A stretch of DNA of 64,000 bases from Demequina litoralis (GTDB taxonomy: Bacteria; Actinomycetota; Actinomycetes; Actinomycetales; Demequinaceae), in NCBI RefSeq assembly GCF_030418455.1, contig NZ_JAUHPW010000003.1, positions 62,001 through 126,000 on the forward strand. The letters run 5' to 3'. The translations under genes were made by a program, and so were the position numbers. Positions within the stretch are counted from its first letter, which is position 1; each line of letters opens with the position of its first letter. Of the stretch, positions 50,654 to 63,691 are shown piece by piece. The notes under the pieces were generated by a model. It was not told where the DNA came from. It was given only the letters and a program-made list of their open reading frames with translations, and ran no database searches.

Positions 50654-51402
50654 GCGGGAGCCTCCTGACGAGCGAGGGCATCCTCGCGGTGGTCCGCGTC
50701 CCACGCGCGCACCATCTCGAAGAAGCGATGCTCGAGGTCCGCATGCCCGGGCTCGAGGGCGCCCACGACGCGACCCGCATGCACCACGGTGATGCGGTGG
50801 GCGATGCGCGACACCTCGTCGAGGTGATGGCTGGAGACGAGCACGCCCGCGCCCCTGGCGGCCGCCGCCACGATGACGTCGCGCAGCAGCAGCACCCCGG
50901 CGGGGTCGAGCGCGTTGGTGGGCTCGTCGAGGATGAGGACGTCGGGGTCGTGCGCGGCCGCACAGGCGAGGCCCAGCCGCTGGCGGTTGCCCAGCGACAG
51001 CCCACGCGCCCGGCGTGCGGCCCACGGCCCGAGCTCGAGACGCGCGATCCACGACGACGCCGCGCTCACGGCCGCGTGGCGGTCGAGCCCGTGCAGGCGG
51101 GCGGCATGGACGATGTTGTCGCGGACGGTGAGCTCGGGGTACCCGAACGGCTGGTCGATGACGAAGCCGAGCCGCGCGAACGTCACGGGGCCGGCGGACG
51201 CGGCCGGGGCGCCGAGGATCGTCGCGGCGCCCGAGTCGAGCCGCGTGTGCCCGACGAGCGCCTTCATCGCGGTGGTCTTGCCGGCGCCGTTGAGGCCGAC
51301 GATCGCGTGGATCTCGCCCGCCTCCACCGCGAGGGTGAGGCCGTCGAGCGCCCGCAGCCCGCCGTAGACGCGCACGGCGTCGCGAAGCTCGAGGGCGGTC
51401 AT
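50650..51402 (-). CDS. ABC transporter ATP-binding protein
   Basis: A 250-residue ABC ATPase: Walker A GLNGAGKTT (near 37-45), signature LSLGNRQRLGLACA (near 142; LSLGN in place of LSGGQ), Walker B VLILDEPTNALDP (near 165) and the switch His in VLVSSHHLDEVS. It drives the ABC-2 permease downstream. Its start overlaps the stop of the TetR gene as ATGA, so regulator, ATPase and permease are one operon. Confidence 0.93.
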   Translation of the reverse strand: MTALELRDAVRVYGGLRALDGLTLAVEAGEIHAIVGLNGAGKTTAMKALVGHTRLDSGAATILGAPAASAGPVTFARLGFVIDQPFGYPELTVRDNIVHAARLHGLDRHAAVSAASSWIARLELGPWAARRARGLSLGNRQRLGLACAAAHDPDVLILDEPTNALDPAGVLLLRDVIVAAAARGAGVLVSSHHLDEVSRIAHRITVVHAGRVVGALEPGHADLEHRFFEMVRAWDADHREDALARQEAPA

Positions 51403-51989
51403 GGCGTCGCCCCGGCGAATGCGGCGACCGGAGCGTCGGCGAGGCTGGGCACCACGGTGGTCATCGCCTCGGCGACGAGCGCGCCGATGGTGCGGCTCGT
51501 GCCCTCGAGCGCCCAGGAGAACAGGACGGTGGTGACGGCGGCGAGGCAGGCCGCGGCGGCGACGCGCATCTCCCGCTCGGCTCGGGGGCCCGCGGCGGCC
51601 TCGACGATCGCCCGCTCGGTCGCGGCGGAGTTCGCGGCCATGCCCGCCTGGAGCTCGGGCTCCCGCGCCGCGATCGCGATACCGCGGCGCGCGGACGCGG
51701 TGGGCTCCTGGTCGAGCAGCGGCACGAGCGACAGCAGCCCCCGCGCGACGCGCTCGATGGCGGGGAGGTCCACGGGCTGAGCGGCCACCGCGGCGGCGAT
51801 GACGGGGTCGAAGGGGTCGTCGAGGAGCACCCGCTCCTTGGTGGGGAAGTGGCGGAAGAACGTCATGTGGCTGACGCCGGCGGCGGTCGCGATCTCCTCG
51901 ACCGTGACCGCGCGGTAGCCGCGCTGCTCGAACAGGTCGAGCGCGGCGGACTGGAGGCGGGCGCGGGTGGCCTCGGCGCGGGTGGTCAT
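51399..51989 (-). CDS. TetR-family repressor of the ABC exporter
   Basis: A 196-residue regulator. The N-terminal helix-turn-helix is ALDLFEQRGYRAVTVEEIATAAGVSHMTFFRHFPTKERVLL (about 15-55), split here as EEIATAAGVSHMTFFRHF. The C-terminal ligand domain is Ala-rich. The start ATG 51989 is six bases after an AACACT box that overlaps the operator at 51998-52012. It is the first gene of the exporter operon and so likely represses it together with itself, and possibly the divergent cupin gene. Confidence 0.9.
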   Translation of the reverse strand: MTTRAEATRARLQSAALDLFEQRGYRAVTVEEIATAAGVSHMTFFRHFPTKERVLLDDPFDPVIAAAVAAQPVDLPAIERVARGLLSLVPLLDQEPTASARRGIAIAAREPELQAGMAANSAATERAIVEAAAGPRAEREMRVAAAACLAAVTTVLFSWALEGTSRTIGALVAEAMTTVVPSLADAPVAAFAGATP

Positions 51990-51997
51990 GCCTCTAG

Positions 51998-52012
51998 TGT
52001 TAGTCACTAACA
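51998..52012. promoter_or_regulatory. TetR operator between exporter operon and cupin gene
   Basis: TGTTAGTCACTAACA is a perfect 15-bp palindrome, extended by CTAG on both sides (CTAG at 51994-51997 and 52014-52017). It overlaps the presumed -10 region of the TetR gene, nine bases from its start codon. Confidence 0.72.
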
Positions 52013-52037
52013 TCTAGTGCGCAACCCGCGGGGGCGA

Positions 52038-52043
52038 TAGCGT
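52038..52043 (+). promoter_or_regulatory. -10 box TAGCGT, leaderless start
   Basis: TAGCGT, six bases, ATG at 52050. The TetR operator lies at its -35 region. Confidence 0.5.
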
Positions 52044-52049
52044 GCCCGA

Positions 52050-52478
52050 ATGGGTGACTACCAGGTGCTGGAGATGGGCGGCCTCGAGGACTGGCGGGGC
52101 TATCACGGCGGCTTCCAGCCGCACACGCTGCGCGACGGCCGGCGCGTGGTGGACCACGAGATCGCGATGCAGTACATCGGCATGACGGCCAACGCGTTCG
52201 TGCCTGGCGAGGAGGCCGGCTACTGGCACACGCACGACGCGATCGAGGAGCTCTACGTCTTCCTCGCCGGTCGCGGCCAGATGGCGCTCGACGACGAGAT
52301 CGTCGACGTGGGTCCCGGCACCGCGGTGCGCGTGGGCCAGGGCGTGTGGCGGACCTGGAGGTGCGTGCCCGACAGCGCCGAGCCGATGCGGTGGTTCTGC
52401 ATCCGCGCGGGCGGCGGCGAGCTGCCGCACCTGCCCGACGACGCGACGCGCGACGAGGACCGCCCGTCGCCCTGGTGA
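52050..52478 (+). CDS. Cupin-domain protein
   Basis: A 142-residue single cupin. Metal-binding motif 1 is GYWHTHDAIEELYVFLAGRGQM (about 57-78, His, His and Glu present) and motif 2 is PGTAVRVGQGVWRTWR, in which the usual His is replaced. The substrate is unknown; such small cupins bind metals or sugars. It is divergent from the TetR-regulated exporter and shares its control region. Confidence 0.85.
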   Translation: MGDYQVLEMGGLEDWRGYHGGFQPHTLRDGRRVVDHEIAMQYIGMTANAFVPGEEAGYWHTHDAIEELYVFLAGRGQMALDDEIVDVGPGTAVRVGQGVWRTWRCVPDSAEPMRWFCIRAGGGELPHLPDDATRDEDRPSPW

Positions 52479-52506
52479 CGACGGGCGGCCCTGCGGACGA
52501 TGTCGC

Positions 52507-52545
52507 GGGGGCGGGGGCGGGGGCGGGGGCGGGGGCGGGGGCGGG
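52507..52545. repeat. (GGGGGC)6 hexanucleotide repeat
   Basis: Six exact copies of GGGGGC at 52507-52542 plus GGG. It starts eight bases beyond the stop codon of the MFS gene. The G-runs could form G-quadruplexes, and the tract is prone to slippage. Confidence 0.9.
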
Positions 52546-52552
52546 TTCGGGG

Positions 52553-53986
52553 TCAGGCCGGGGCGAGGGCCGGGGCCGGTGCGGCCTCGGCCGCGGGCGC
52601 CGTCGCCAGCTCGGCACGTCGCGACGGCAGCAGCGTCGCGATGCCGGTGGTGGCCGCGAGGATCGCGGCACCCCACAGCACCGCGGTCCGTGCCGCGTCG
52701 GTGTAGCCGGTGGGCGTGAGCTCGCCGCCCACGCCCGTGAACACCGCGGTGAGCACCGCGATGCCGAGCGCGACGCCGATCTCGCGGACGGTGGCGTTGG
52801 TGCCCGACGCCTTGGCGTGGTCCTCGTCGCGCATGTGCGCGAGCACCGCGGTGGCGAGCGGGGCGAAGACCAGGCCCATGCCCACGCCGCACGCGACGAA
52901 TCCCGGCACGAGCTCGCCGTAGGCGACGGCCGGGTCGAGCGTGAGGCCGATCCACGCGAGGCCCCCGGACTGGAGCGCGACCCCCGTCGTCACGAGCGCG
53001 CGGATGCCGACGCGCGGCGCGACGATGCCGGTGAGCGGGGCCACGACGAGCGGCGCCATGGTCCACGGCATCGTCATCGCGCCCGCCTCGAGGGGCGACC
53101 TCCCCTGCACCACCTGCAGGAACTGGATGAGGATGAACACCGCGCCGAAGATGCCGATCGAGAACATCAGGCCCACCGCGTTCGCGACGGAGAACGAGCG
53201 GTCGCGGAACAGCCCGAGCGGCAGCAGCGGGTCGCGGGTGCGGCCCTCCCACGCGAGGAAGGCGAGCAGCAGGACGGCGCCGCCGACGAGCGCGGCGAGC
53301 ACCTGGGGCGAGGTCCATCCCGCATCGTTCCCGCGCACGATCCCGAAGACCAGGCCGAACACGGCCGCCATGCCCAGCCCGAGGCCGACGAGGTCGAGGC
53401 GCACGCGGTCGCCGCGGGTCTCCGCGAGGAACGCTCGGATCAGCACGAGCGCGAGGACCCCGACCGGCACGTTGAGCCAGAAGATCGCGTGCCAGGTGAG
53501 GCCCTCGACCACGGCGCCGCCGACGAGCGGGCCCACCGCGACGCCGAGGCCGGCGACACCGCCCCAGATGCCGATCGCGAGCGGTCGCATCCGCGCGGAG
53601 ACGTTGGTGGACAGGATCGCGAGCGACAGCGGCATGAGCGCCGCGCCGCCGATGCCCTGGAGCACGCGGGCGGCGATGAGCGCCTCCGCGGTCGGGGCGA
53701 GCGCGCACAGGATCGATGCGACGGTGAACAGCGCGACGCCGCCGGAGAACACCCGGCGGCGGCCGAAGCGGTCGCCGAGCGCGACCGCCATGAGGATCAT
53801 GCTCGCGAAGGCGAGCGAGTAGCCGTTGATGAACCACTGGAGCTGCTCGAGCGAGGCGTCGAGGTCGACGGCGAGGACGGGCAGCGCGTTGGTGACGACG
53901 AGGTTGTCGAGGCTCGCCATGAAGGCGGGGATCGACGCCGCGAGCACCACGAGGCCCACGGAAGTCCGGCGTGACGTGGTTGACAT
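52553..53986 (-). CDS. DHA2-type (EmrB/QacA) MFS multidrug exporter
   Basis: A 477-residue protein with fourteen membrane helices. The DHA2 signature ASIPAFMASLDNLVVTNALPVLAVDL (near 15-40; Asp in LDNLVV), LGDRFGRRRVF near 72-82 and the motif C-like GGAALMPLSLAIL are present. It exports cationic or amphipathic drugs using the proton gradient. The C-terminus is Ala/Pro-rich (AEAAPAPALAPA). GGGAGGGAAC precedes ATG 53986. It is divergent from a TetR gene and shares two operators with it. Confidence 0.92.
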   Translation of the reverse strand: MSTTSRRTSVGLVVLAASIPAFMASLDNLVVTNALPVLAVDLDASLEQLQWFINGYSLAFASMILMAVALGDRFGRRRVFSGGVALFTVASILCALAPTAEALIAARVLQGIGGAALMPLSLAILSTNVSARMRPLAIGIWGGVAGLGVAVGPLVGGAVVEGLTWHAIFWLNVPVGVLALVLIRAFLAETRGDRVRLDLVGLGLGMAAVFGLVFGIVRGNDAGWTSPQVLAALVGGAVLLLAFLAWEGRTRDPLLPLGLFRDRSFSVANAVGLMFSIGIFGAVFILIQFLQVVQGRSPLEAGAMTMPWTMAPLVVAPLTGIVAPRVGIRALVTTGVALQSGGLAWIGLTLDPAVAYGELVPGFVACGVGMGLVFAPLATAVLAHMRDEDHAKASGTNATVREIGVALGIAVLTAVFTGVGGELTPTGYTDAARTAVLWGAAILAATTGIATLLPSRRAELATAPAAEAAPAPALAPA

Positions 53987-54045
53987 GTTCCCTCCCGGGG
54001 ATGGCGGTGGGGCCGGGGCGGGCGGGGCGCCGCCTCCGAGCCGTG

Positions 54046-54063
54046 AGTAATCAATTGATTACT
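54046..54063. promoter_or_regulatory. TetR operator 1
   Basis: AGTAATCAATTGATTACT is a perfect 18-bp palindrome between the divergent MFS exporter and TetR genes, 60 bases from the exporter start. Confidence 0.75.
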
Positions 54064-54078
54064 ACACTTCGACACGCT

Positions 54079-54096
54079 AGTAATCGCTTGATAACA
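54079..54096. promoter_or_regulatory. TetR operator 2 with leaderless promoter
   Basis: GTAATC-GCTT-GATAAC is an imperfect second copy of operator 1. It overlaps TAACAT (54092-54097), which lies six bases before ATG 54104 and is probably the -10 box of the regulator gene, giving autorepression. Confidence 0.65.
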
Positions 54097-54103
54097 TGTC
54101 AAC

Positions 54104-54718
54104 ATGAACACCGTGGAAGGCCGTCTGAGCAGCGACGACAGACGCGAGCAGATCCTCGCCGCCGCGACGATCGTGTTCGGCGACCGGGGCTACGCGGGCG
54201 GCACCACCGACGCGATCGCCAAGCAGGCCGGGATCTCGCAGGCGTACGTGGTGCGGATGTTCGGCTCGAAGGAGAACCTCTTCCTCGAGGTCTCCCGCCG
54301 CGCCACCGGGCGGCTCCGCGTCGCGTTCCGCGACATCATCGCCGGCTTCACCGGCGAGGAGACCAACCTCGAGCGCCAGGTGGCGCTCGGGCGCGCGTAC
54401 GGCCAGCTCGTCGCCGACCGCGGGATCCTCCTCACGCTGCTGCACCTCTTCGGGCTGGGTCAGGACCCCGTCTTCGGTCCCGAGGCGCGCGGTTGCTTCC
54501 TCGACGTCTACCGGATCGTCCGTGACGAGGCCGGGTTCTCCGCCGAGGAGGCCACCGAGTTCTTCGCGCGCGGCATGCTCAACACGATCCTGCTCGCGCT
54601 CCGCATGCCCGACCTCAAGGACGATCCGCGGGCCTTCGAGCTGCTGAGCTCCTCGATGGGGGAGCAGTGCGAGACGATCCTCGCGAGCTTCGAGGCGCAG
54701 GCCTCAGCCGCCGGCTGA
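54104..54718 (+). CDS. TetR-family repressor of the MFS exporter
   Basis: A 204-residue regulator. The helix-turn-helix is in ILAAATIVFGDRGYAGGTTDAIAKQAGISQAYVVRMFGSKENLF (about 16-60), shown in part as TDAIAKQAGISQAYVVRMFG. The C-terminal domain has many hydrophobic residues for ligand binding. Two copies of its likely operator lie between it and the divergent exporter. The 3' end overlaps the 3' end of the histidine kinase gene by 15 bases. Confidence 0.9.
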   Translation: MNTVEGRLSSDDRREQILAAATIVFGDRGYAGGTTDAIAKQAGISQAYVVRMFGSKENLFLEVSRRATGRLRVAFRDIIAGFTGEETNLERQVALGRAYGQLVADRGILLTLLHLFGLGQDPVFGPEARGCFLDVYRIVRDEAGFSAEEATEFFARGMLNTILLALRMPDLKDDPRAFELLSSSMGEQCETILASFEAQASAAG

Positions 54719-56134
54719 CCCCTCCGCCGGAGCGAGCGGCAGGGTGATGCGGACCGTCGTGCCGTCGCCCTCGACCGAGTCGACCTCGAGCGCGCCGCCG
54801 TGCACGGCCACGATCGCGGCCGTGATCGCGAGACCCAGGCCCGACCCGCCGGTCGCGCGGGCGCGCGACTGGTCGCCGCGCACGAACCGCTCGGTCGCGC
54901 GACCGGCCACGTCGGGGGCCATGCCGGGGCCGTCGTCCACGACCTCGACCCGGGCCGCCGCATCGTCCCGCCGCACGCGCACCGTGACGTTGTCGCCGCC
55001 GTGCACGGCCGCGTTGGTGACGACGTTGATGATCGCCTGACGCAGGCGGTCGGGGTCGCCCTCGATGGTGACGGCCTCGGGCGCGTCCAGCGCGAACGTC
55101 ACGCCCTCGCGGGCGGCCGTCGCGTCGCGCACGACCTCCTCGCACACGTGCGCGAGGTCGAGGCGGATGGGCGTCAGCTGCGGCTCCGCGTCGTAGCGCG
55201 CGAGCTCCAGCATGTCCTCCACCAGCCTGCGCATGCGGCCGGCCTCGGCCTCGGTGCGGGTCCACGCGTCGGCCACGTCCTCGTCGCGCGCGAGCGCGCC
55301 GCGGCGGTACAGCTCCGCGTAGCCGAGGACCGTCGTGAGGGGCGTGCGCAGCTCGTGCGAGGCGTCCGCGACGAACTCGCGCAGGCGGGCCTCCGAGCGC
55401 GCGCGCTCGTCGAGGGCGTCGGTGAGCGTGTCGACCATGGTGTTGAGGGACGAGGCGAGCTCGCCGGACTCGCTGCCCTGGCCCGCTCCCTCGAGACGGA
55501 CGTCGAGGTCGCCGGTGGCGATCTGCTTGGAGGCGTCGACCATGCGCCGCATCGGGTTGACCCCGAGCGAGATGACGAACCAGCCCACGACGGCGAGGCC
55601 GCCGAGGATGGCCACGAGGCCCAGCCCCTCGATGAGGACGAGGCGGCGGGTGGTGGCCTCGACGTCGTCCATCGGCAGCGCCGTGATGTCGGCGCCGAAG
55701 CTCGTGGCCCGCGCGAGCACGCGGTACTGCCCGTCGCCGTCCGAGGCCGGCACGGTCAGGTACGCGGAGCCGCTCGTGGGCATCGTCACGTCGTCGAAGG
55801 CCGGCGACGTGTTGGCCGCGTCGACGGTGTTGGGCGTGTAGAAGACGTAGCAGTTGCCGGCGAGGTCGACGAAGCCTCTGAAGACGTCCGAGGGGCGGTC
55901 GCCGTCGGTCTCCGTCGCGTCCTCGTCGCCGGACCCGCACTCGAGCGCGAGCCGCGGCTCCCCGCGCCCGCCGATGGTCTCGGAGGACGATGCGAGGCGG
56001 TCGTCGAGCTGACCGACCAGGAAGGTGTGGGTCACCACGGTGACGATGAGCGCGATGCCGACGGCGATCGCCGCGATCGCGCCGAGGCCGATCAGGACAC
56101 GGGAGCGAAGCGTCAGCCCGGCGCGGGCCGTCAC
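54704..56134 (-). CDS. Sensor histidine kinase
   Basis: A 476-residue membrane kinase. Helix 1 is VLIGLGAIAAIAVGIALIVTVV (about 13-34), then an extracellular sensor domain (about 40-165) with two Cys (LECGSG, GNCYVF), helix 2 (GLGLVAILGGLAVVGWFVIS, about 175-195), HAMP, the phosphoacceptor motif DASHELRTPLTTVLGYAEL (about 265-283) and an HATPase domain with NVVTNAAVHGG, DDGPGM and GGSGLGLAI. The start is GTG 56134 overlapping the response regulator stop by four bases. The signal is unknown; the regulated genes suggest phosphate or polyphosphate status (inference). Confidence 0.93.
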   Translation of the reverse strand: MTARAGLTLRSRVLIGLGAIAAIAVGIALIVTVVTHTFLVGQLDDRLASSSETIGGRGEPRLALECGSGDEDATETDGDRPSDVFRGFVDLAGNCYVFYTPNTVDAANTSPAFDDVTMPTSGSAYLTVPASDGDGQYRVLARATSFGADITALPMDDVEATTRRLVLIEGLGLVAILGGLAVVGWFVISLGVNPMRRMVDASKQIATGDLDVRLEGAGQGSESGELASSLNTMVDTLTDALDERARSEARLREFVADASHELRTPLTTVLGYAELYRRGALARDEDVADAWTRTEAEAGRMRRLVEDMLELARYDAEPQLTPIRLDLAHVCEEVVRDATAAREGVTFALDAPEAVTIEGDPDRLRQAIINVVTNAAVHGGDNVTVRVRRDDAAARVEVVDDGPGMAPDVAGRATERFVRGDQSRARATGGSGLGLAITAAIVAVHGGALEVDSVEGDGTTVRITLPLAPAEGSAGG

Positions 56135-56814
56135 GACACCCTCAGCGTGTAGCCCACCCCACGGACCGTGTGGATGAGCTTGGGCTCCTGGGTGTCGACC
56201 TTGCGGCGCACGTAGCCGATGTAGGTCTCGACGACGCCCGGGTCGTCGTCGCGCGAGTAGCCCCACACGCCCTCGAGCAGCTGGCCGCGCGACAGCACGC
56301 GGCCGGTGTTCTGCATGAGGTGGCGCAGCAGGTTGTACTCCGTGGGGGAGAGCTGGATCTCCTCGCCGCCGCGGGTCACGCGGTGGGCCACGTCGTCGAG
56401 CTCGAGGTCCGCGACGCGGTACACGTCGGAGGCGCTGGGCGCGCGCTCGACGCGGCGCGACACCGCCTCGACCCGCGCGACCAGCTCGTCGAGGTTGAAC
56501 GGCTTCTGGAGGTAGTCGTCGCCGCCGATGGTGAGGCCCTCGACCTTGTCCTTCGCGCTGTCGCGCGCGGTGAGGAAGATGATCGGCGTGCGGTCGCCCG
56601 ACTCTCGCAGGCGGCGCGTCACGGCGAAGCCGTCGAGCCCGGGCATCATCACGTCGAGCACGATGAGGTCGGGGCGCAGCTCGCGTACGGCCTTGAGGCC
56701 GGCCTGGCCGTCGCTCGCGTCCATGACCTCGTAGCCCTCGTAGCGGAGGGCGGCACAGAGCATCATGCGGAGGTTGTCCTCGTCGTCGACCACGAGGATG
56801 CGTCGTTCAGCCAT
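56131..56814 (-). CDS. OmpR/PhoB-family response regulator
   Basis: A 227-residue regulator. The receiver domain has VVDDEDNL (about 7-14), phosphoacceptor Asp in LIVLDVMMPG (about 50-59), TAR and KPF switch residues; the C-terminal winged helix has LSPTEYNLLRHLMQNTGRVLSR and YIGYVRRKVD. The start ATG 56814 follows a GATACT box by six bases. It lies first in the operon with the kinase. Likely targets are the 11-bp-phased CTCCCAG boxes in its own promoter region, which also serves the divergent DUF4956 operon, and near 60.38 kb. Confidence 0.95.
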   Translation of the reverse strand: MAERRILVVDDEDNLRMMLCAALRYEGYEVMDASDGQAGLKAVRELRPDLIVLDVMMPGLDGFAVTRRLRESGDRTPIIFLTARDSAKDKVEGLTIGGDDYLQKPFNLDELVARVEAVSRRVERAPSASDVYRVADLELDDVAHRVTRGGEEIQLSPTEYNLLRHLMQNTGRVLSRGQLLEGVWGYSRDDDPGVVETYIGYVRRKVDTQEPKLIHTVRGVGYTLRVS

Positions 56815-56820
56815 GGCCCC

Positions 56821-56826
56821 AGTATC
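56821..56826 (-). promoter_or_regulatory. -10 box GATACT for two-component operon
   Basis: Reverse-strand GATACT, six bases, ATG at 56814; probably a leaderless mRNA. Confidence 0.45.
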
Positions 56827-56847
56827 CCCGCACAACCTCACGGTTTG

Positions 56848-56863
56848 CTGGGAGGACCCTGGG
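56848..56863. promoter_or_regulatory. Response-regulator box A
   Basis: On the reverse strand two CCCAG half-sites are spaced exactly 11 bp apart (CTGGGAG at 56848 and CTGGGCG at 56859 on the + strand). It lies just behind the promoter of the regulator gene and fits autoregulation. Confidence 0.55.
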
Positions 56864-56903
56864 CGTGGGCCTCGAGCCCGGTCCCCAGGAACCCCCGTGC
56901 TCC

Positions 56904-56921
56904 CTCTCAGCGTCCTCCCAG
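56904..56921. promoter_or_regulatory. Response-regulator box B
   Basis: CTCTCAG-CGTC-CTCCCAG, two direct half-sites with an 11-bp period, upstream of the DUF4956 operon. Its right half and box A also form the 10-bp inverted repeat CTGGGAGGAC / GTCCTCCCAG. Confidence 0.6.
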
Positions 56922-56929
56922 GTGGCGCA

Positions 56930-56947
56930 GGTTAACTCGAGGTGAAC
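56930..56947. promoter_or_regulatory. PHO-box-like direct repeat
   Basis: GGTTAAC-TCGA-GGTGAAC; on the reverse strand GTTCACC-TCGA-GTTAACC, two 7-bp units with an 11-bp period. This resembles the GTTCACC repeats bound by actinobacterial PhoP. It lies 46 bases before the DUF4956 start. Confidence 0.5.
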
Positions 56948-56992
56948 ATCGGCCAGGACGCCGGTCCGACGCCCCATAACCGAGAGGTCACC

Positions 56993-57601
56993 ATGCCCTA
57001 CTACGCCTTCATCGCCGCGGATCTCATCGCCGTCGCGCTCCTCGTCTTCGGCCTGTACTTCCCGCGCCACCGGCGTCGCGACCTCATCGTGGCGTTCCTG
57101 TCGATCAACGTCGGCGTCATGGGCGTCACCTACGCGATGACCAACGCCGACATCTCGCTCGGCTTCGGCATGGGCATCTTCGCGGTGCTGTCGATCATCC
57201 GCCTGCGCTCCACCGAGATGGACCACGCCGAGATCGCCTACTACTTCACGGCGATCGCGCTCGGCCTCCTCGGCGGCTTCCCCGCGCTGTCGCCCTCGCT
57301 GAGCTTCACCCTCATGGCGGTGCTCCTCGGCGTCATCCTGGTCGGCGACAACCCGCGGCTCTTCGCGCGCAGCCGTCAGCAGCAGATGGTCCTCGACCAG
57401 GCCTTCACCACGGAGGAGGACGCGCGCAACCACCTCGCGCTCCTGCTGGGCGCCCGCATCGACCGCGTCAACATCCGCAAGGTCGACCTGCTCAACGAGT
57501 CCACCGTGGTCGACGTCCGCTACACGCTCGACGCGGCGGTCGACACCCCGTTCGACGACCGCATCGTCGCCCGGGGCGCGAACGCCGAGGTGACGCGATG
57601 A
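56993..57601 (+). CDS. DUF4956 membrane protein
   Basis: A 202-residue protein with four or five membrane helices in the first ~125 residues (YYAFIAADLIAVALLVFGLYF, DLIVAFLSINVGVMGVTYAM, ISLGFGMGIFAVLSIIRLRSTEM, YYFTAIALGLLGGF, FTLMAVLLGVILVG) and a cytoplasmic alpha/beta domain (about 135-200). The loop SIIRLRSTEMDHAEIAYYF is the family signature. Function unknown; the family commonly accompanies VTC polyphosphate polymerases and CotH/Cthe_2159 proteins. GAGAGG precedes the ATG. Its stop overlaps the VTC start as ATGA. Confidence 0.9.
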   Translation: MPYYAFIAADLIAVALLVFGLYFPRHRRRDLIVAFLSINVGVMGVTYAMTNADISLGFGMGIFAVLSIIRLRSTEMDHAEIAYYFTAIALGLLGGFPALSPSLSFTLMAVLLGVILVGDNPRLFARSRQQQMVLDQAFTTEEDARNHLALLLGARIDRVNIRKVDLLNESTVVDVRYTLDAAVDTPFDDRIVARGANAEVTR

Positions 57602-58365
57602 TCTCGTGGGAGGAGCGCCTCGCGGCGCTGCCGGCGGTGAGCCTGCCCGAGCTCGAGGCCGAGGCCGCCCTGCTCACCCGGGTCGACCGCAAGTACATCG
57701 TGTCGCCTGCGGTGTGGGCCGACGTGCTCGGCTCGGTCGACGGGCTGCGGGCCCTCGAGATCGACGGCGAGCGGGCCTTCGGGTACGCGTCCGTCTACTA
57801 CGACACCCCGGAGCTCGAGTCCTACCGCGATGCCGCCCGGCGCCGCCCGTCCCGCTACAAGGTGCGCACCCGCGAGTACCTCGACACCGGCGGCCGTGCG
57901 ATCGAGGTGAAGCTGCGGTCCGCGAAGGGCGAGACGGTGAAGCACCGCGAGTGGATCGGCGCCGACGTGGCCCGCGGCCGCGAGCTCGACGGCGAGGCGC
58001 GCGACTTCGTCGCGACGTTCCCCGAGGTCGGGACCGCGGTCGAGCGGCTCAGCCCCGTGCTCACCACCCGCTACCGCCGATCGACCCTGGTCGCCGCCGG
58101 CGCCCGCGTCACGATCGACCGTGACGTCGTCGGCATCGGCACCGACGGCGAGCGCATCGGCTTCGGCGGCGCCCTCATCGTCGAGACCAAGTCCTCCCTG
58201 CGGGCGGGCGACGTCGACCGCGCGCTGTGGGCGCGCGGCGTGCGCCCCGCCCGCGTCTCCAAGTACTGCACCACGCTCGCCGCGCTGCAGCCCGGGCTCC
58301 CGGCCAACCGCTGGTCCCGCACGCTGCGCCGACACCTGACCCCCGCTGCCGCGCTCGCGGCCTGA
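57598..58365 (+). CDS. VTC-domain polyphosphate polymerase
   Basis: A 255-residue protein of the triphosphate tunnel / VTC fold. The basic tunnel residues are visible in LTRVDRKYIV (about 22-31), RRRPSRYKVRTREYL (about 81-95), EVKLRSAKGETVKHR (about 102-116), TTRYRRSTLV (about 155-164) and VETKSSL (about 195-201). Yeast Vtc4 uses this fold to polymerise ATP gamma-phosphate to polyphosphate; bacterial relatives are assumed to do similarly. It has no membrane segment and is coupled by overlap to DUF4956, which may provide the membrane channel (inference). Confidence 0.9.
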   Translation: MISWEERLAALPAVSLPELEAEAALLTRVDRKYIVSPAVWADVLGSVDGLRALEIDGERAFGYASVYYDTPELESYRDAARRRPSRYKVRTREYLDTGGRAIEVKLRSAKGETVKHREWIGADVARGRELDGEARDFVATFPEVGTAVERLSPVLTTRYRRSTLVAAGARVTIDRDVVGIGTDGERIGFGGALIVETKSSLRAGDVDRALWARGVRPARVSKYCTTLAALQPGLPANRWSRTLRRHLTPAAALAA

Positions 58366-58383
58366 CCCTGAGAGGCGTTCCCC

Positions 58384-60216
58384 ATGCGCAAGCCCACCAC
58401 CGTCTTCGCCGGCATCCTCGCCGGCTCCCTGCTCCTCGCCGGCTGCTCGACCGGCGCGGCGACCTCGACCGAGGACGCCACCTCCGGGACCGGCACGACG
58501 CAGACCGAGGACACGACCACCAGCACCACCTCGACCGCGGCGGCCAGCGGCGAGTTCGCGGAGGTCAGCTACGCGGACCTCGACATCAAGGACGAGGACC
58601 TCGACGTCGACGAGTCGTCCGCGGTCGACATCGCGCTCGCGGACGGCGCCACCGCCGCGGGCGACGGCTACACGGTCGACGGCGACACCGTCACCATCAC
58701 CGACGGCGGCGTCTACCGCCTCAGCGGCACCCTGTCCGCCGGCCAGGTGGTGGTCGCGACCGACGACAAGGACGTCACGCTCATCCTCGACGGCGTCGAC
58801 ATCACCGCGGAGACCACCGGCGCGCTCGACATCGAGGACGCCGACGAGGTGATCATCCTGCTGGCGGACGGCTCGACCAACAGCATCTCCGACGCCGCGG
58901 ACGCGACCGCGAGCACGGACGAGGACTACGACGGCCCCAACGCGGCGCTGTTCTCCCGCTCCGACCTGTGGATCACCGGCGACGGCGCGCTCACCGTGAA
59001 CGGGGTCGCCAACGACGGGATCACCTCCAAGGACGGCCTCGTCATCGATTCGGGCACCATCGAGGTGACCGCGACCGACGACGGCATCCGCGGCAAGGAC
59101 TACCTGGTGGTCCTCGACGGCGACATCACCGTCGACGCGGGCGGCGACGGCCTCAAGGCCGACAACGAGAACATGGCGGACGACGACGGCGTGCCCGTGG
59201 GCGTGGCGTGGATCTCCGGCGGCACGCTCGACATCACCGCGGGCGTGGACGGCATCGACGCGTACTACCAGGCCATGGTCGAGGGCGGCGACATCACGAT
59301 CGCGGCGGACGACGACGGCATCACCACCAAGGGCGTGCTCCGCATCGCCGACGGCACCGTGGACATCACGAACTCGTACGAGGGCCTCGAGGGCCGCCTC
59401 ATCCGCCTCACCGGCGGCACGGGCTCGATCGTCGCCTCGGACGACGGCTTCAACGTGAGCTCCGGCTCCGGCTCCACCGTGGGCGACGGCAGCGCCGACG
59501 TCGGCGGCGGCATGGGCGGCGGGCGCAGCGGCGACCGTCCGTCCGGCGGCCCGGGCGCGGCGCCGAGCAGCTCCGACACCGAGGACACCACCTCGACCAC
59601 CGGCACCACGGCGACCACCGCCGTCTACTCGACCACCGCATCGTCCACCGATGCGTCCATCGACGGCGCCACCGACGCGACCACCGTCGCGGGCGGCGGC
59701 ATGGGCGGCATGGAGTCCGCCGAGGAGGGCCTCGAGCTCGAGATCTCCGGCGGCACCTGGTACATCGACGCGGACGGCGACGGCCTCGACTCGAACGGCG
59801 ACGCCGTGATGACCGGCGGCACGGTCGTCGTCGAGGGGCCGACCAACAGCGGCAACGGCGCGGTCGACGTCGCGGGCGACTTCACCATCTCGGGCGGCAC
59901 GCTCGTCGCCTCGGGCTCGTCCGGCATGTTCGAGGCGCCCACGGCCGACGGCCAGGGCGTGCTCTCCATCGGCTTCCAGTCCCAGCTCGCCGAGGGCACG
60001 GTGCTGACGGTGACCGATGCGGACGGCGACTTCGTCGCATCGTTCACCACGTCCAAGGTGGCGCAGGCGATCGTGCTGTCGAGCCCCGACGTCGTCTCCG
60101 GCGAGACGTACACGGTGATCGCCGACGCGACGGTCACGGGCGACGACTTCGGCGGCCTGGTCACCGACGGCTCGGTCTCCGGCGGCGACGAGCTCGGCAC
60201 GCTGACCGCCGACTGA
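58384..60216 (+). CDS. Cthe_2159-like carbohydrate-binding beta-helix lipoprotein
   Basis: A 610-residue lipoprotein (lipobox LLAGC, Cys about 21) after a Thr-rich linker. Residues about 55-360 form repeated short beta-strand units such as GVYRLSGTLSAGQ, VTLILDGVDITAE, LWITGDGALTVNG, GTIEVTATDDGIRGKD and GGTLDITAGVDGIDA: the right-handed parallel beta-helix of the Cthe_2159 family, which binds acidic polysaccharide and calcium. A Gly/Ser/Thr-rich insert (about 365-440) interrupts it and the helix resumes with EISGGTWYIDADGDGLDSNGD. It lies 18 bases after the VTC gene. It is strongly acidic. It probably sits on the cell surface. Confidence 0.87.
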   Translation: MRKPTTVFAGILAGSLLLAGCSTGAATSTEDATSGTGTTQTEDTTTSTTSTAAASGEFAEVSYADLDIKDEDLDVDESSAVDIALADGATAAGDGYTVDGDTVTITDGGVYRLSGTLSAGQVVVATDDKDVTLILDGVDITAETTGALDIEDADEVIILLADGSTNSISDAADATASTDEDYDGPNAALFSRSDLWITGDGALTVNGVANDGITSKDGLVIDSGTIEVTATDDGIRGKDYLVVLDGDITVDAGGDGLKADNENMADDDGVPVGVAWISGGTLDITAGVDGIDAYYQAMVEGGDITIAADDDGITTKGVLRIADGTVDITNSYEGLEGRLIRLTGGTGSIVASDDGFNVSSGSGSTVGDGSADVGGGMGGGRSGDRPSGGPGAAPSSSDTEDTTSTTGTTATTAVYSTTASSTDASIDGATDATTVAGGGMGGMESAEEGLELEISGGTWYIDADGDGLDSNGDAVMTGGTVVVEGPTNSGNGAVDVAGDFTISGGTLVASGSSGMFEAPTADGQGVLSIGFQSQLAEGTVLTVTDADGDFVASFTTSKVAQAIVLSSPDVVSGETYTVIADATVTGDDFGGLVTDGSVSGGDELGTLTAD

Positions 60217-60237
60217 CCCGCCACCGACGCGACACGT

Positions 60238-60323
60238 AGCGCTCCTCCACACGGAGGCCCCGTGGATCGGCACGATTCGATCGTGTTCCCGTTCACACCA
60301 GGGGTTTCGTGTGGAGGAGCGCT
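60238..60323. repeat. Perfect 16-bp inverted repeat around an inner hairpin
   Basis: AGCGCTCCTCCACACG (60238-60253) and its exact reverse complement (60308-60323) enclose 54 bases that contain a second perfect stem, CACGAT-TCG-ATCGTG. The 86-base element lies 22 bases after the lipoprotein stop. It may terminate the operon or be a small repeated element. Confidence 0.65.
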
Positions 60324-60367
60324 TCCTGTGCGTGGAGGGGTGCACGCGGGCGGCGACTCCCCGCGAC

Positions 60368-60396
60368 CTCCCGCCGCGCTCCCAGGCTTCTCCCAG
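60368..60396 (+). promoter_or_regulatory. Response-regulator box C
   Basis: Three direct units with an 11-bp period: CTCCCGC (60368), CTCCCAG (60379), CTCCCAG (60390). The unit matches box B of the DUF4956 promoter. A TTGTAT -10-like box follows at 60407-60412. No convincing gene lies downstream. Confidence 0.6.
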
Positions 60397-60412
60397 CATC
60401 CGCCGGTTGTAT

Positions 60413-60686
60413 GGATGTCATGAGCCCCAGCCCCCCCGAGGGCTCTGAGCCGAGAGGCGCCCATGGTCGCCGGCTCGCCGTCCTCCCCGTGTCGACGGCC
60501 CTCGACACCTCCCCGAGGGCCCCGACGGGACGGCGACCGGTGAGCTCCGGGACTGATGACCGGTCCGCCGGGCCGGAGCGAGGCCGTGGACGCCTCTCGG
60601 CTCCCCCCGGGGCGACGGCTGCCAACGCCGCCCCATCCGATCGCGCGAGGCCCTGGTGACTGCCAACACCGGGGCCTCGCGGTCGT
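60413..60686 (+). ncRNA. Possible small RNA under response-regulator control
   Basis: The stretch starts after box C and its -10-like sequence and ends with a hairpin at about 60645-60680 (GCGAGGCCC..GGTG / CACC..GGGCCTCGC), which may also end the convergent LysR gene. A 79-codon frame from ATG 60420 exists, but its codons lack the strong G/C third-position bias of real genes here, so an RNA is the better guess. The class is unknown. Confidence 0.3.
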
Positions 60687-61565
60687 CTACAGCCCGGTGA
60701 CCAGCAGGCTCGCGAACGCCTGAGCCGCCGGAGCGGCATCCCGCGGCAGCGCGAGGAAGATGTCGCGGTACGTGTCGGGCCGGGTGGGCACGGCGACGAT
60801 GCCCGGGATGGCCGGGCTCGCGTCGAGGGCCATGCGCGTGAGCAGCGCGACGCCGAGTCCCTCCGCGATGAGGCGCTGTGCCGCGATGTAGTCCTCCGTC
60901 ACGAACGCGATGTTGGGCACGAAGCCCGCCTCCTCCGCATGCGTGACGAGGTGGGTCCGGCAGCGGATGCAGCCCGAGATCCAGCGCTCGTCGGCGAGCG
61001 TGCTCATCTCGATCACCGCGCGCGAGGCCAGCGGGTGCGCCTCGGGCAGGATCGCGAGGTACTCGTCGCGGCCCAGCGGCGTGGTCGGCAGGTCCTCCGG
61101 CGGCGGCGTGGCCGAGTCGGAGAAGCCGATCACCAGGTCCGCCGCGCCGGTGCGCAGGAGCTCCAGCGCGGGATCCGTCTCGGTCTCCTCGAGTCCGATC
61201 TCGACGCCCGGGTAGGTGCGCGCGAACTGCGCGAGCGGGCGGGGCAGCACCGTCGCGCAGAACGACGTGAACGCCGCGATCCGCAGGTGCCCGACCTGGA
61301 GGTCCGCGTGCCGGTGGAGGCAGCGCTCGGCATCCTCGAGGCTCGCGGCGATCGAGTCCGCGTGCTGCAGGAGCGCGACCCCCGTGGGCGTGAGGCGCGT
61401 GACCCGGCCGGCGCGCATCGTCAGCGGCACGCCCGCGCGCCGCTCGAGCGCGCGCAGGTGGTGGGCCACGGTGGGCTCGCTCAGCTGCAGCGCGCGGGCG
61501 GCGGCGGCCTTCGAGCCGTGACGGGAGACCTCGCGGAGGATGAGCAGTCGCTCGACATCGATCAT
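60687..61565 (-). CDS. LysR-family regulator
   Basis: A 292-residue regulator: winged HTH at residues 1-60 (LLILREVSRHGSKAAAARALQLSEPTVAHHLRALERRAGVPL, seen as SKAAAARALQLSEPTVAHHL) and a substrate-binding-like effector domain (VGHLRIAAFTSFCATVLPRPLAQF onward). It has Cys residues in SGCIRCRTHL (about 195) that might sense redox or metal. It is divergent from a class V aminotransferase-like gene, the usual LysR arrangement, so it probably controls that gene. The start ATG 61565 follows CATGAT by six bases. Confidence 0.9.
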   Translation of the reverse strand: MIDVERLLILREVSRHGSKAAAARALQLSEPTVAHHLRALERRAGVPLTMRAGRVTRLTPTGVALLQHADSIAASLEDAERCLHRHADLQVGHLRIAAFTSFCATVLPRPLAQFARTYPGVEIGLEETETDPALELLRTGAADLVIGFSDSATPPPEDLPTTPLGRDEYLAILPEAHPLASRAVIEMSTLADERWISGCIRCRTHLVTHAEEAGFVPNIAFVTEDYIAAQRLIAEGLGVALLTRMALDASPAIPGIVAVPTRPDTYRDIFLALPRDAAPAAQAFASLLVTGL

Positions 61566-61579
61566 GAGACCATCATGAC

Positions 61580-61599
61580 ATCGAGGTCTAGATGTCGAT
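61580..61599. promoter_or_regulatory. LysR-type operator
   Basis: ATCGAGGTCTAGATGTCGAT is a 20-bp interrupted palindrome (ATCGA..TCTAGA..TCGAT) between the divergent LysR and aminotransferase genes. Confidence 0.55.
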
Positions 61600-61643
61600 A
61601 ATGGCGTCTTGTGTGGGTGTGGCGTCGTGGCGACCATGGACCC

Positions 61644-62675
61644 ATGCTCGCGATCGCCTCCTCCTTCCGCCGGGTGCCGGGCTACCTCGACACCCCGTCC
61701 TACGGCCTGCCCGCCCGCGCCACCGCCACCGCGCTGCGGCGCGCCGCCCGCGCGTGGGAGCAGGGCACGCTCGACCCGGTCGCGCTCGACGCCTCCGTCG
61801 AGCGCATGCGCGCCGCCTTCGCGGCCCTCGTGGGGGCGCACGCCGACGACATCGCGCTCGCGGCGAGCACCTCGCAGGTGGTCGGCATGGTCGCGGCGTC
61901 GCTGCCGGACGGCGCACGCGTCGTCGTCGCGGCGGGCGACTTCGCATCGGTCCCGCTGCCCTTCGTGCACGACCCGCGCCTCACCGTCGACGTGGTCCCG
62001 CTCGACCGCATCGTCGCCGAGACCGCGCGCGGCGCGGACCTCGTCGCGGTGAGCGCCGTGCAGTCCGCGGACGGCGCCGTCGTCGACCTCGCCGCGCTCG
62101 CGATGGCCGCGCGCGTCGCGGGAGCGCGCACCCTGATCGACGTGAGCCACGCGGCCGGCTGGATGCCCGTGGCCGCGCGCGACTTCGACGTGGTGGTGGC
62201 GAGCGCCTACAAGTGGCTCGGCACGCCGCGAGGCATCGCGCTCGCGGCCGTGCGGCCGGAGGCCTCCTGGGTGCGCCCCGTGAGCGCCAGCTGGTACGGG
62301 TCCGATGCGCCGTGGGAGTCGCTCTACGGCCACGACGTCGCGCTCAGCGCCCGGGCGCGCCGCCTCGACATCTCACCGCCCTGGCAGCTCGTCGAGGCCG
62401 GCGCCGCCGCGCTGGAGCTGCTCGCCTCGCAGGGCGTCGAGGCGATCGGGCGCCACAGCGTGGGCCTCGCGAACGAGTTCCGGGCCCGCGTCGGGCTGCC
62501 CGCCGGCGCGTCGCCGATCGTCGCGGTCGACGGCGTCGACCCCGCGGCCCTCGCGCGCGCCGGGGTCAAGGCCGCCGCGCGCGGCGGCCGGGCCCGCCTG
62601 GGCTTCTACGTCTACAACGACGAGCGCGACGTGGAGGCCGCCGCGTCGGCGATCCGCGTCGCGCAGGCGGCCTGA
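61644..62675 (+). CDS. Class V aminotransferase-like PLP protein
   Basis: A 343-residue fold-type I PLP protein. The N-terminus PGYLDTPSYGLP resembles kynureninase/cysteine desulfurase-like substrate loops; LIDVSHAAGWMP (near 180; PLP Asp and adjacent His) and VVASAYKWLGTPRG (near 195-208; Schiff-base Lys) are intact. The reaction could be transamination, desulfuration or racemisation; no specific substrate is evident. The start at ATG 61644 gives MLAIASSFRRVPGYL; an upstream in-frame extension is unlikely because it runs into the operator. Control is probably by the divergent LysR protein. Confidence 0.85.
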   Translation: MLAIASSFRRVPGYLDTPSYGLPARATATALRRAARAWEQGTLDPVALDASVERMRAAFAALVGAHADDIALAASTSQVVGMVAASLPDGARVVVAAGDFASVPLPFVHDPRLTVDVVPLDRIVAETARGADLVAVSAVQSADGAVVDLAALAMAARVAGARTLIDVSHAAGWMPVAARDFDVVVASAYKWLGTPRGIALAAVRPEASWVRPVSASWYGSDAPWESLYGHDVALSARARRLDISPPWQLVEAGAAALELLASQGVEAIGRHSVGLANEFRARVGLPAGASPIVAVDGVDPAALARAGVKAAARGGRARLGFYVYNDERDVEAAASAIRVAQAA

Positions 62676-62713
62676 GAGGCGGCTCGAGAGGCGGACCGCC
62701 CGGCCACACGTGG

Positions 62714-62745
62714 CGCTCGACGGACCGATGACGTTCCGTCGAGCG
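62714..62745. terminator. Terminator hairpin between convergent genes
   Basis: A perfect 11-bp stem CGCTCGACGGA / TCCGTCGAGCG with a 10-base loop lies between the aminotransferase-like gene and proC. Confidence 0.7.
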
Positions 62746-62785
62746 TCGCCCTCGTCGTCCTCGTCGCCCTCGTCGCCCTCGTCGC
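62746..62785. repeat. Short tandem repeat, unit CTCGTCGCC
   Basis: About four copies of a 9-bp unit (CTCGTCGCC, one copy CTCGTCGTC) follow the hairpin and end just before the proC stop. Such tracts vary in copy number by slippage. Confidence 0.75.
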
Positions 62786-62793
62786 AGTCTCGC

Positions 62794-63639
62794 CTAGCCG
62801 GCGAGCTGCGCGCCGAGCTCCTTCGAGCGCGCCACGGCGGCGTTCGCGCCGGCGGAGATCACGCCCTGGAGACCGGCGTGCTCCATCGCCTCGAGCGCGG
62901 CGAGCGTGACCCCGCCGGGGGAGCTCACGCGACGGCGCAGCTCCTGCGGGGTGTCGCCCGACTCGGCGAGCAGCTGGGCCGCGCCGGTGAAGGTCTGCTG
63001 TGCGAGCAGCGACGAGACCTCGCGGTCGAGCCCGTGCATGACGCCGGCCTCCGTGATCGCCTCGACCACCGCGAAGAAGTACGCGGGCGCGGAGCCCGCG
63101 ACCACCGTCACGGCCTCGATGAGGTCCTCGGGCACCCGGACCACCAGGCCCGTCGCGCGCAGGATCCTCTCCGCGAGCAGGAGGTGCTCCTCGGTCGCGT
63201 GCGCGCCCGGGGACACCGAGGTCGCGCCGCGGCCGACCACCGACGGGGTGTTCGGCATGACCCGGACCACCGGCGTGCCGGCGGGCAGGCGCTCCTCGTA
63301 GAACGATGCGGGCAGCGCGGCGGCGACGGTGAGGACCACCACGCCGGGCTCGAGCGAGGCGACGAGGCCGTCGAGCACCTCGGCCATCTGCTGCGGCTTC
63401 ACCGCGAGGACGACCACCTCGGCGCCCTTGACGGCCTCGGCCGCGTCGGCGGTGCCGATCACGTGGTGCGCCTCGACGAGCGCCTCGCGCCGCTCGTCGC
63501 CGCGGTTCGCGACGGTGATCGATGCACCCGGCCAGCCGGCGACGCGCATCGCGGAGATGAGGGTGCCGCCGATCACCCCGCCGCCGATGACGGCGACGGA
63601 GGGCAGGCCGGACTCGGACGTGGAGACGTGGGTGCTCAT
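62794..63639 (-). CDS. proC: Pyrroline-5-carboxylate reductase
   Basis: A 281-residue NADPH enzyme: Rossmann loop VAVIGGGVIGGTLISAM (about 15-31), VVLAVKPQQMAEVL (about 75-88), VVRVMPNTPSVVGRGAT (about 122-138) and the C-terminal signature SPGGVTLAALEAMEHAGLQGV (about 235-255). It catalyses the last step of proline synthesis. A TAGGTT box six bases before ATG 63639 suggests a leaderless mRNA. It is monocistronic. Confidence 0.96.
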   Translation of the reverse strand: MSTHVSTSESGLPSVAVIGGGVIGGTLISAMRVAGWPGASITVANRGDERREALVEAHHVIGTADAAEAVKGAEVVVLAVKPQQMAEVLDGLVASLEPGVVVLTVAAALPASFYEERLPAGTPVVRVMPNTPSVVGRGATSVSPGAHATEEHLLLAERILRATGLVVRVPEDLIEAVTVVAGSAPAYFFAVVEAITEAGVMHGLDREVSSLLAQQTFTGAAQLLAESGDTPQELRRRVSSPGGVTLAALEAMEHAGLQGVISAGANAAVARSKELGAQLAG

Positions 63640-63645
63640 GCGCCC

Positions 63646-63651
63646 AACCTA
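63646..63651 (-). promoter_or_regulatory. -10 box TAGGTT, leaderless proC start
   Basis: Reverse-strand TAGGTT, six bases, ATG at 63639. Confidence 0.5.
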
Positions 63652-63691
63652 TCGCGGGGCGCGGCGGCTCTCGCGGGCAGCGGCCGGACGG

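Follow-up and report, generated by a model that had tools for sequence, protein, structure and literature searches.

Predicted PhoP-type and phosphate control of a DUF4956-VTC operon, with a candidate structured RNA behind it, in Demequina litoralis

Gene content and conservation of the locus

In this study, we analyzed a two-component system and the operon that diverges from it in a 64,000-nucleotide stretch of Demequina litoralis DNA (contig NZ_JAUHPW010000003.1, positions 62,001 to 126,000), referred to here as the window, whose numbering is used throughout. Five genes lie at 54704-60216: those for a kinase and a regulator on the minus strand and, divergent from them on the plus strand, those for a DUF4956 membrane protein, a VTC protein and a Cthe_2159 lipoprotein. 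Pfam matches and open reading frames confirmed the arrangement given in an initial annotation, in which a kinase/regulator operon diverged from a DUF4956-VTC pair followed by an acidic beta-helix lipoprotein. That annotation had missed the third regulator box, which lies at the edge of the interval it described, and the RNA behind it. The features are as follows.

54704..56136 (start approximate), minus strand: sensor histidine kinase with HAMP, HisKA and HATPase_c domains (Pfam, genus alignment)
56131..56814, minus strand: OmpR-type response regulator, receiver plus winged helix (Pfam, comparison with solved structures)
56848..56865, minus strand: box facing the regulator gene, CGCCCAGGGTCCTCCCAG, one mismatch, with similar sites in relatives
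56904..56921, plus strand: box facing DUF4956, CTCTCAGCGTCCTCCCAG, 10 bp before the predicted -10
56930..56947, minus strand: PHO box, GTTCACCTCGAGTTAACC, covering the predicted -10 and start (motif scan)
56932..56937, plus strand: predicted -10, TTAACT (spacing and conservation)
56993..57601, plus strand: DUF4956 membrane protein, 202 residues (Pfam E 8.7e-55)
57598..58365, plus strand: VTC protein, Vtc4-type triphosphate tunnel domain (Pfam E 5.5e-17), overlapping DUF4956 by 4 bp
58384..60216, plus strand: Cthe_2159 beta-helix lipoprotein (PF14262, 255.7 bits, E 5.7e-76)
60379..60396, plus strand: third box, CTCCCAGGCTTCTCCCAG (motif scan)
60407..60412, plus strand: predicted -10, TTGTAT, 10 bp after the third box
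60419..60682, plus strand: predicted structured RNA, with a 5' hairpin bearing a C-rich loop, an invariant long-range stem, inner hairpins and two 3' hairpins
60619..60625, plus strand: first CTGCCAA loop
60660..60666, plus strand: second CTGCCAA loop, in a hairpin that could double as a terminator for the convergent LysR gene

The starts of the kinase, regulator and DUF4956 genes were picked by eye; the mechanical open reading frame of the kinase begins at 56266, and the likelier start overlaps the stop codon of the regulator gene.

The five-gene set is kept in most of the genus Demequina. In 36 of the 47 genomes from the taxonomic family, DUF4956 exceeded its family cut-off, and every one of these 36 belongs to the same genus. 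Among the Demequina relatives over this cut-off, a VTC match adjoined DUF4956 in 35 of 35, a divergent regulator was present in 34 of 35 (exception, L043) and a Cthe_2159 match in 32 of 35 (exceptions, L057, L252 and L256). DUF4956 was also found in 39 of 296 genomes sampled from the class. VTC adjoined it in all 29 of the class loci fetched and in 76 of 80 loci from named genomes, Demequina included; among the latter, L125, L127, L156 and L186 gave no VTC match. A regulator and kinase of the same kind lay within the fetched flanks of only 8 of the 66 non-Demequina named loci. Outside Demequina, the VTC neighbor persists; the linked regulator mostly does not. The frames of loci L043-L091 and L112-L191 included no DUF4956-VTC fusion. 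In one Demequina genome (G022; L049, 8217-9008), the VTC gene is broken into two frames, and a weak match to the RNA described below lies at the same locus.

A Vtc4-type protein and its putative membrane partner

The VTC protein scored 62.5 bits against PF09359 (cut-off, 23), and its structure model was confident, with a predicted local distance difference test (pLDDT) score of 93.2. The best fold match was Vtc4 (3g3r_B; Z 17.1, root mean square deviation 2.9, 210 residues aligned, 21% identity), and VTC chains outranked other tunnel-fold entries (best Z 14.3) among the matches listed; Foldseek agreed (E 2.1e-11, template modeling scores near 0.6). A search of the PDB with the single sequence did not find Vtc4, and a profile of 49 VTC sequences reached it at E 2.9e-5. 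Invariant in these 49 sequences were R28, R90, R92, K105, K115, R161, R170, E196, K198 and K222. Changes at R264, R266 and E426 inactivate Vtc4 (PMC9911596; here and below, papers are cited for individual passages). R90 and R92 align with the catalytic R264 and R266, and K32 is the counterpart of Vtc4 K200 by the offset of the fold alignment.

Like the Vtc4 component (PF09359) of the yeast VTC complex, the Demequina protein has the tunnel fold, conserved basic tunnel residues and, presumably, an adjoining membrane partner. It differs in that its 255 residues comprise the tunnel domain only, with the SPX sensor and a membrane domain of its own absent, in that the putative membrane partner is a separate protein, DUF4956, and in that control is seemingly transcriptional. 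Because it is a bare tunnel domain, we refer to it as a bacterial VTC homologue rather than as a VTC complex. Of the membrane-linked polyphosphate synthesis proposed in the initial annotation, the Vtc4-type fold is now observed (Z 17.1), and we infer from this model the activity, that of a polyphosphate polymerase, and the polymer. Two points weigh against this assignment. E196, although invariant, matches the metal ligand E426 by position only, beyond the end of the alignment; furthermore, PPK1 is present in 42 of the 44 genus genomes, so that polyphosphate as such does not depend on VTC, which would be a second polymerase.

DUF4956 was modeled as five long helices followed by a C-terminal alpha/beta domain. 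The model is of low confidence (pLDDT 75.6; predicted template modeling score, 0.55), and the PDB offered no convincing match to its fold (Foldseek best E 0.029; VIA best Z 5.8), which tells against any firm assignment of its role. Invariant residues in 50 DUF4956 sequences include R25, R28, R70, R72 and E80. Basic residues tend to lie at the cytoplasmic face of the membrane (the positive-inside rule), and by this rule the invariant arginines would face the cytoplasm, where the product of VTC would arrive; DUF4956 is a putative membrane partner of VTC. A relationship to MgtC (PF02308) was unsupported (hhalign probability, 0.5% against two MgtC sequences).

The Cthe_2159 lipoprotein has a solved relative, 4peu (E 1.4e-31). 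Its acidity, already remarked on in the initial annotation, is strong, with 107 aspartate or glutamate residues against 17 lysine or arginine residues in 610.

The PhoP-type regulator, its probable box and its predicted regulon

The nearest solved relative of the regulator was PhoP of Mycobacterium tuberculosis (247 bits), ahead of PrrA (187), MtrA (182) and RegX3 (153). This PhoP is not known as the phosphate regulator. It binds TCACAGC-N4-TCACAGC as a tandem dimer and contacts bases through Asn212, Val213, Glu215, Ser216, Tyr217 and Tyr220 (PMC4832192). In the window regulator, the Val, Glu and both Tyr residues are the same, Ser is replaced by Thr, and Asn by Gly; the Asn212 counterpart was Gly, Ser or Ala in each of the 27 regulators, among those of 34 relatives, whose helix was readable. 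Asn212 of PhoP makes a water-mediated bond to the third motif base, A, and closer contacts to the adjacent bases (PMC4832192). Read as TC[C/T]CAG, the Demequina motif differs from the PhoP motif at that third base, which suggests a neat fit between the change of residue and the change of base. The extracytoplasmic domain of the kinase is poorly conserved in the genus alignment.

The 11-bp-phased CTCCCAG boxes reported earlier in the shared promoter were borne out by scanning for CTCYCAG-N4-CTCYCAG. At up to one mismatch, the window holds three matches against 0.10 expected, a number that none of 100 shuffles reached, and one of them faces the regulator gene. The 3.02-Mb genome has five exact boxes, two of them at the locus, and 11 at up to one mismatch, against 5 for the reversed pattern; five one-mismatch boxes lie away from the locus (L007, L008 and L010-L012). 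Of the 44 genus genomes, 29 carry exact boxes, 74 in all, whereas the reversed pattern matched twice; 55 of the 74 precede module-type genes. Their predicted targets are CotH (14 boxes, in 12 genomes), DUF4956 (12), the RNA or its place (11, the copy in G009 being strongly diverged), the regulator itself (5), a flavin mononucleotide (FMN)-binding protein (5), an HlyD-type adaptor (5), a second Cthe_2159 protein (2) and DUF3500 (1). Targets were assigned by similarity to one member or by place, with Pfam run on L002, L005, L006, L192, L193, L197, L223, L226, L228 and L237; the four HlyD-type adaptors other than that of L228 were recognized by eye. Of 35 relatives, 10 have an exact box after the gene for Cthe_2159.

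At both the DUF4956 and the third site, the box stands 10 bp before a -10-like hexamer. PhoB-type activators act from the -35 position, and the 10-bp spacing has the layout of such activation. Outside Demequina, where 65 promoters were scanned (one of the 66 was too short and was dropped), boxes at two mismatches occurred in 5 of the 8 promoters with a linked regulator and kinase and in 4 of the 57 without (Fisher p 0.0007), a comparison that was chosen after the matches had been seen.

The autoregulatory box, the PhoP-type regulator, the PhoP-type site geometry and the coherent regulon together make it very probable that the divergent two-component system controls the operon, as the initial annotation had proposed. 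Set against this are the 19 of 74 exact boxes that lie before unrelated or unidentified frames and the exact box before DUF4956 in just 12 of the 44 genus genomes, many of the others having variants or no visible box. The system resembles PhoPR of M. tuberculosis in regulator family, in a direct 7-bp repeat whose spacer is strictly 4 bp and in four of the six base-contacting residues; it differs in having Gly for Asn212 (Ser or Ala in some relatives), C or T for the A at the third motif base, and VTC, CotH and surface genes as its predicted targets. CutRS was rejected as a relative: its site is TAWATAAA (PMC12802291), and two extracytoplasmic cysteines were present in just 5 of 26 aligned kinases (those of the window, L050, L051, L056 and L058).

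Some members of the box set are themselves worth recording. CotH proteins of about 150 to 160 residues (L006, 1542-1997; L223, 1490-1966) align with the CotH profile over its second half alone; CotH proteins of 420 to 490 residues stand at the same kind of box in L192, L193 and L197. A second, different OmpR-type regulator has a box ahead of it (L203, 1501-2246; G018), and an exact box stands upstream of a gene for an extracytoplasmic function-type sigma factor (L205, 850-1467; G022). In the source genome, boxes precede a DUF3500 lipoprotein gene (L002, 174-1466) and genes for an FMN-binding protein and then a ferric-reductase-like membrane protein (L005, 880-1455 and 4-880); these genes may form a branch of the regulon for redox reactions at the surface.

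The box also bears on the statement that DUF4956, VTC and CotH genes recur together. The pairing of DUF4956 with VTC was seen directly here; the CotH link stands in print and, in our data, in the shared box. CotH-PPP-DUF4956 accessory genes accompany Pel polysaccharide clusters (PMC7112168), and CotH adjoins VTC genes in NELoc-2 of Clostridium perfringens (PMC2879425). The likeness lies in VTC-type genes found with CotH, joined in the Pel clusters by DUF4956; the difference is that CotH of the Demequina genome is on another contig and is tied to the module by the box alone. These associations raise an alternative, namely, that VTC and DUF4956, together with CotH kinases, modify a surface polymer by transferring phosphate or another polyanion to it and do not make free polyphosphate. 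The CotH boxes in 12 genomes, the two published neighborhoods and the prior presence of PPK1 are all in keeping with it. The nearest folds are nevertheless VTC chains (Z up to 17.1, against at most 14.3 for other tunnel-fold entries, among the matches listed), and PHO boxes tie the DUF4956-VTC operon to phosphate; hence, we regard surface-polymer transfer as unlikely and retain polyphosphate synthesis as the preferred function.

A PHO box in a minority of DUF4956-VTC operons

The repeat at 56930-56947 on the minus strand, with half-sites GTTCACC and GTTAACC separated by TCGA, is one mismatch from the Streptomyces PhoP site, the PHO box GTTCACC-N4-GTTCACC (PMC4832192), and so the PHO-box-like repeat of the initial annotation holds. 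At up to three mismatches, the window contains 4 matches against 3.89 expected, and the locus site alone is below three. Five sites in the genome have at most one mismatch. The sole perfect copy precedes pstS; it is oriented toward that gene, with its end 77 bp upstream of where the frame starts. A two-mismatch box lies between phoU and a PhoR/PnpS-like kinase (below curated cut-offs), and the frame after this kinase is receiver-like, a cut-off piece with no NCBIfam match that we take for RegX3. The motif, its spacer and its company at pstS and phoU are like those of the Streptomyces PHO box; the copy in the Demequina operon is unlike it in being inverted and in lying over the predicted -10 and start. 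Weak PHO sites mean little by themselves: at up to two mismatches, the motif matches 33 times in the genome and the reversed pattern 10 times.

Conservation was compared with controls. Among 35 Demequina promoters (the window and 34 relatives), 12 carried a PHO box at up to one mismatch and 14 at up to two, against 0.1% and 0.2% in Markov shuffles and 0 and 0.15 of 35 for permuted motifs (largest, 2). Two variants recur, one ending in GTTAACC and the other in GTTCATC, at slightly different places near the predicted start as judged by eye. Among the 65 non-Demequina promoters, the corresponding counts were 7 and 20; related genomes are among the 20, seven of them from Streptomyces and three from Paractinoplanes. 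Forty permuted motifs gave 0 and, on average, 0.35 (largest, 4), and other spacers gave 0 or 1; random windows from the same loci gave 6 and 19 of 3305, and those with no long frame gave 1 and 1 of 134. In a second sample of 29 class loci, there were 1 and 4 PHO boxes against 0 and 0.2 for permuted motifs (largest, 2). Counting the other way, the box is weak or missing in 21 of 35 Demequina and absent or weak in 45 of 65 non-Demequina promoters, and the second sample yielded just 4 of 29, one of these loci being common to the first; these proportions count against the phosphate input. By these motif counts, the link to phosphate is genuine, although it shows in just a minority of operons. A reading of GTTAACT as a -10 element only, and not as part of a PHO box, was dropped on the motif match and the conservation tests.

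The initial annotation held that phosphate or envelope stress induces the operon. A site of the phosphate regulon is present, as that proposal implies; its predicted sign is the opposite. Because the PHO box overlies the predicted -10 and start and runs opposite to the operon, we predict that the operon is repressed, and not induced, in phosphate starvation. Furthermore, the CTCYCAG boxes suit an M. tuberculosis PhoP-type regulator and the PHO box suits the phosphate system encoded elsewhere beside phoU, which points to two separate inputs rather than one. Induction by starvation through the PHO box, with polyphosphate or phosphate handling switched on under stress, would find support in the reality and enrichment of the box, in its orientation toward the gene at pstS in the same genome and in its direction in other genera, where it mostly runs with the gene (17 of 20). 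At this locus, it points away from the operon, and no later -10 is visible by eye before the ATG; in Paractinoplanes, the box stands directly ahead of the ribosome site in L151 and L154 and about 40 nt before the start in L172. Induction therefore seems doubtful to us, and repression is the sign that we carry forward.

The three Paractinoplanes promoters (L151, L154 and L172) have the PHO box upstream of DUF4956, and L151 and L154 also show, by eye, a PhoP-type-like 11-bp repeat of TTCACAG/TTCTTAG farther upstream.

A predicted structured RNA behind the third box

The approximately 260 nt after the third box fold to -166.8 kcal/mol (z -7.87 relative to shuffled sequence). DNA matches to this stretch were found in 10 of the 47 family genomes at E < 1e-50, and 18 more genomes had short, weak matches only (E 2e-7 to 0.01). 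The consensus structure of the 10 aligned sequences has 92 pairs, 93.9% of them formed. Both sides had changed in 14 pairs, compared with 6.4 in shuffles (none of 500 reaching 14) and 1 to 2 for slid structures. Across the window and 20 loci (367 kb), hairpins with a CTGCCA loop and a score of at least 9 numbered 11; the 14 listed at a score of at least 7 all lie just behind the Cthe_2159 gene. Among 40 permuted loops, 38 others gave 0 to 3, and ACTGCC gave 9 at this very place, one base over. A model built on the 3' half recovered the ten source genomes at E < 1e-20, by construction, together with weak matches at the same place in G022 (1.4e-4) and G009 (0.003), which we take for decayed copies; weak matches elsewhere, the best in G041 (9.2e-4; L275, G041:C2:46701-46807), are at chance level or unexplained. 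Run with Infernal's stricter filters, this model found nothing in 245 other class genomes. Rfam 15 gave no match at E 1 over 50000-64000 and, at E up to 10 over 60380-60700, three far sub-threshold matches to unrelated families.

Several observations weigh against the RNA or its strand. It is confined to one Demequina group. The opposite strand folds deeper in the window (-171.5 kcal/mol), albeit with a smaller z (-4.56), and is the deeper strand in 5 of 10 single sequences. Further pair types number 33 against 29.2 in shuffles (31 of 500), near the shuffled level; the long stem of 21 pairs is without covariation, being almost invariant; and helix 1 is paired in just 77%. Pairing favors the plus strand, with 93.9% formed against 89.0% when mirrored and a consensus energy of -227.9 against -213.7. 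The single sequences split 5 to 5; the strand assignment rests mainly on the promoter-like box.

The stretch could instead encode a small protein or be no more than a terminator region belonging to the convergent LysR gene. A Shine-Dalgarno-like GAGAGG and an ATG (60463) are invariant in the 10 sequences, L047 holds a 64-codon frame (by eye), the last hairpin ends just past the LysR stop codon, and the minus strand folds about equally deep. Frames from this ATG, however, vary in length and sequence across genomes, with indels that are not in threes (by eye); a terminator would account for neither the 5' hairpin nor the long stem nor the promoter-like box; and wobble pairs favor the plus strand (93.9% against 89.0% mirrored, and 94.0 against 92.9 for the structure derived from the minus strand). 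A coding or terminator origin is accordingly the less probable account, and we continue to treat the stretch as a candidate RNA. In the window and 6 of the 10 relatives, where they were checked, its loops had no recurring local pairing targets in the operon. M. tuberculosis PhoP controls the highly structured noncoding RNA Mcr7 (PMC4038636), which we use only as a working parallel for the predicted control of the Demequina RNA.

On the other side of the locus, beside the kinase gene, a TetR regulator gene (54104-54718) diverges from that of a transporter resembling the major facilitator superfamily (52553-53986), an arrangement retained in several close relatives.

Discussion

On balance, we consider it probable that the locus is a membrane-coupled polyphosphate polymerase operon under PhoP-type and phosphate inputs, accompanied by a trans-acting RNA. 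In this model, cytoplasmic VTC would build the polyphosphate chain from ATP within its tunnel, and DUF4956 would anchor VTC and pass or guide the polyanion at the membrane. The acidic Cthe_2159 lipoprotein would act outside, probably through cations. The divergently encoded PhoP-type regulator would bind CTCYCAG-N4-CTCCCAG 10 bp before the -10 and activate the operon, and would also drive its own gene, those of the CotH kinases, other surface genes and the structured RNA. A phosphate regulator encoded elsewhere would bind the PHO box over the -10 and start, so that the operon would be shut when phosphate is scarce. The RNA would most likely act in trans, base pairing through its C-rich and CUGCCAA loops.

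Searches of open-licence literature, as represented by titles, the starts of abstracts and passages, yielded nothing on phosphate control of DUF4956-VTC, nothing on the Demequina kinase-regulator/DUF4956-VTC system, and no polymerase test of a bacterial VTC, role for DUF4956 or reason for the CotH partnership; a silence in sources of this kind is weak evidence. Bacterial VTC homologues are often labeled "polyphosphate polymerase." The PHO box, found before the operon in several genera, ties DUF4956-VTC to phosphate independently of the fold evidence.

A broader proposal can be put forward only tentatively. DUF4956-VTC may be a widespread two-gene bacterial counterpart of the eukaryotic VTC machine that couples polyphosphate synthesis to transfer across the plasma membrane, that belongs to many actinobacterial Pho regulons as a starvation-repressed member and that feeds an outer polyphosphate-cation layer handled by Cthe_2159 and CotH. 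In Demequina, the pair would then have been rewired to an envelope sensor of the PhoP type, which would also produce structured small RNAs of a new class.

For Demequina, the shared box unites the unlinked CotH, Cthe_2159 and VTC genes as one predicted regulon, and the RNA behind the third box is a candidate noncoding target of a PhoP-type regulator outside the mycobacteria.

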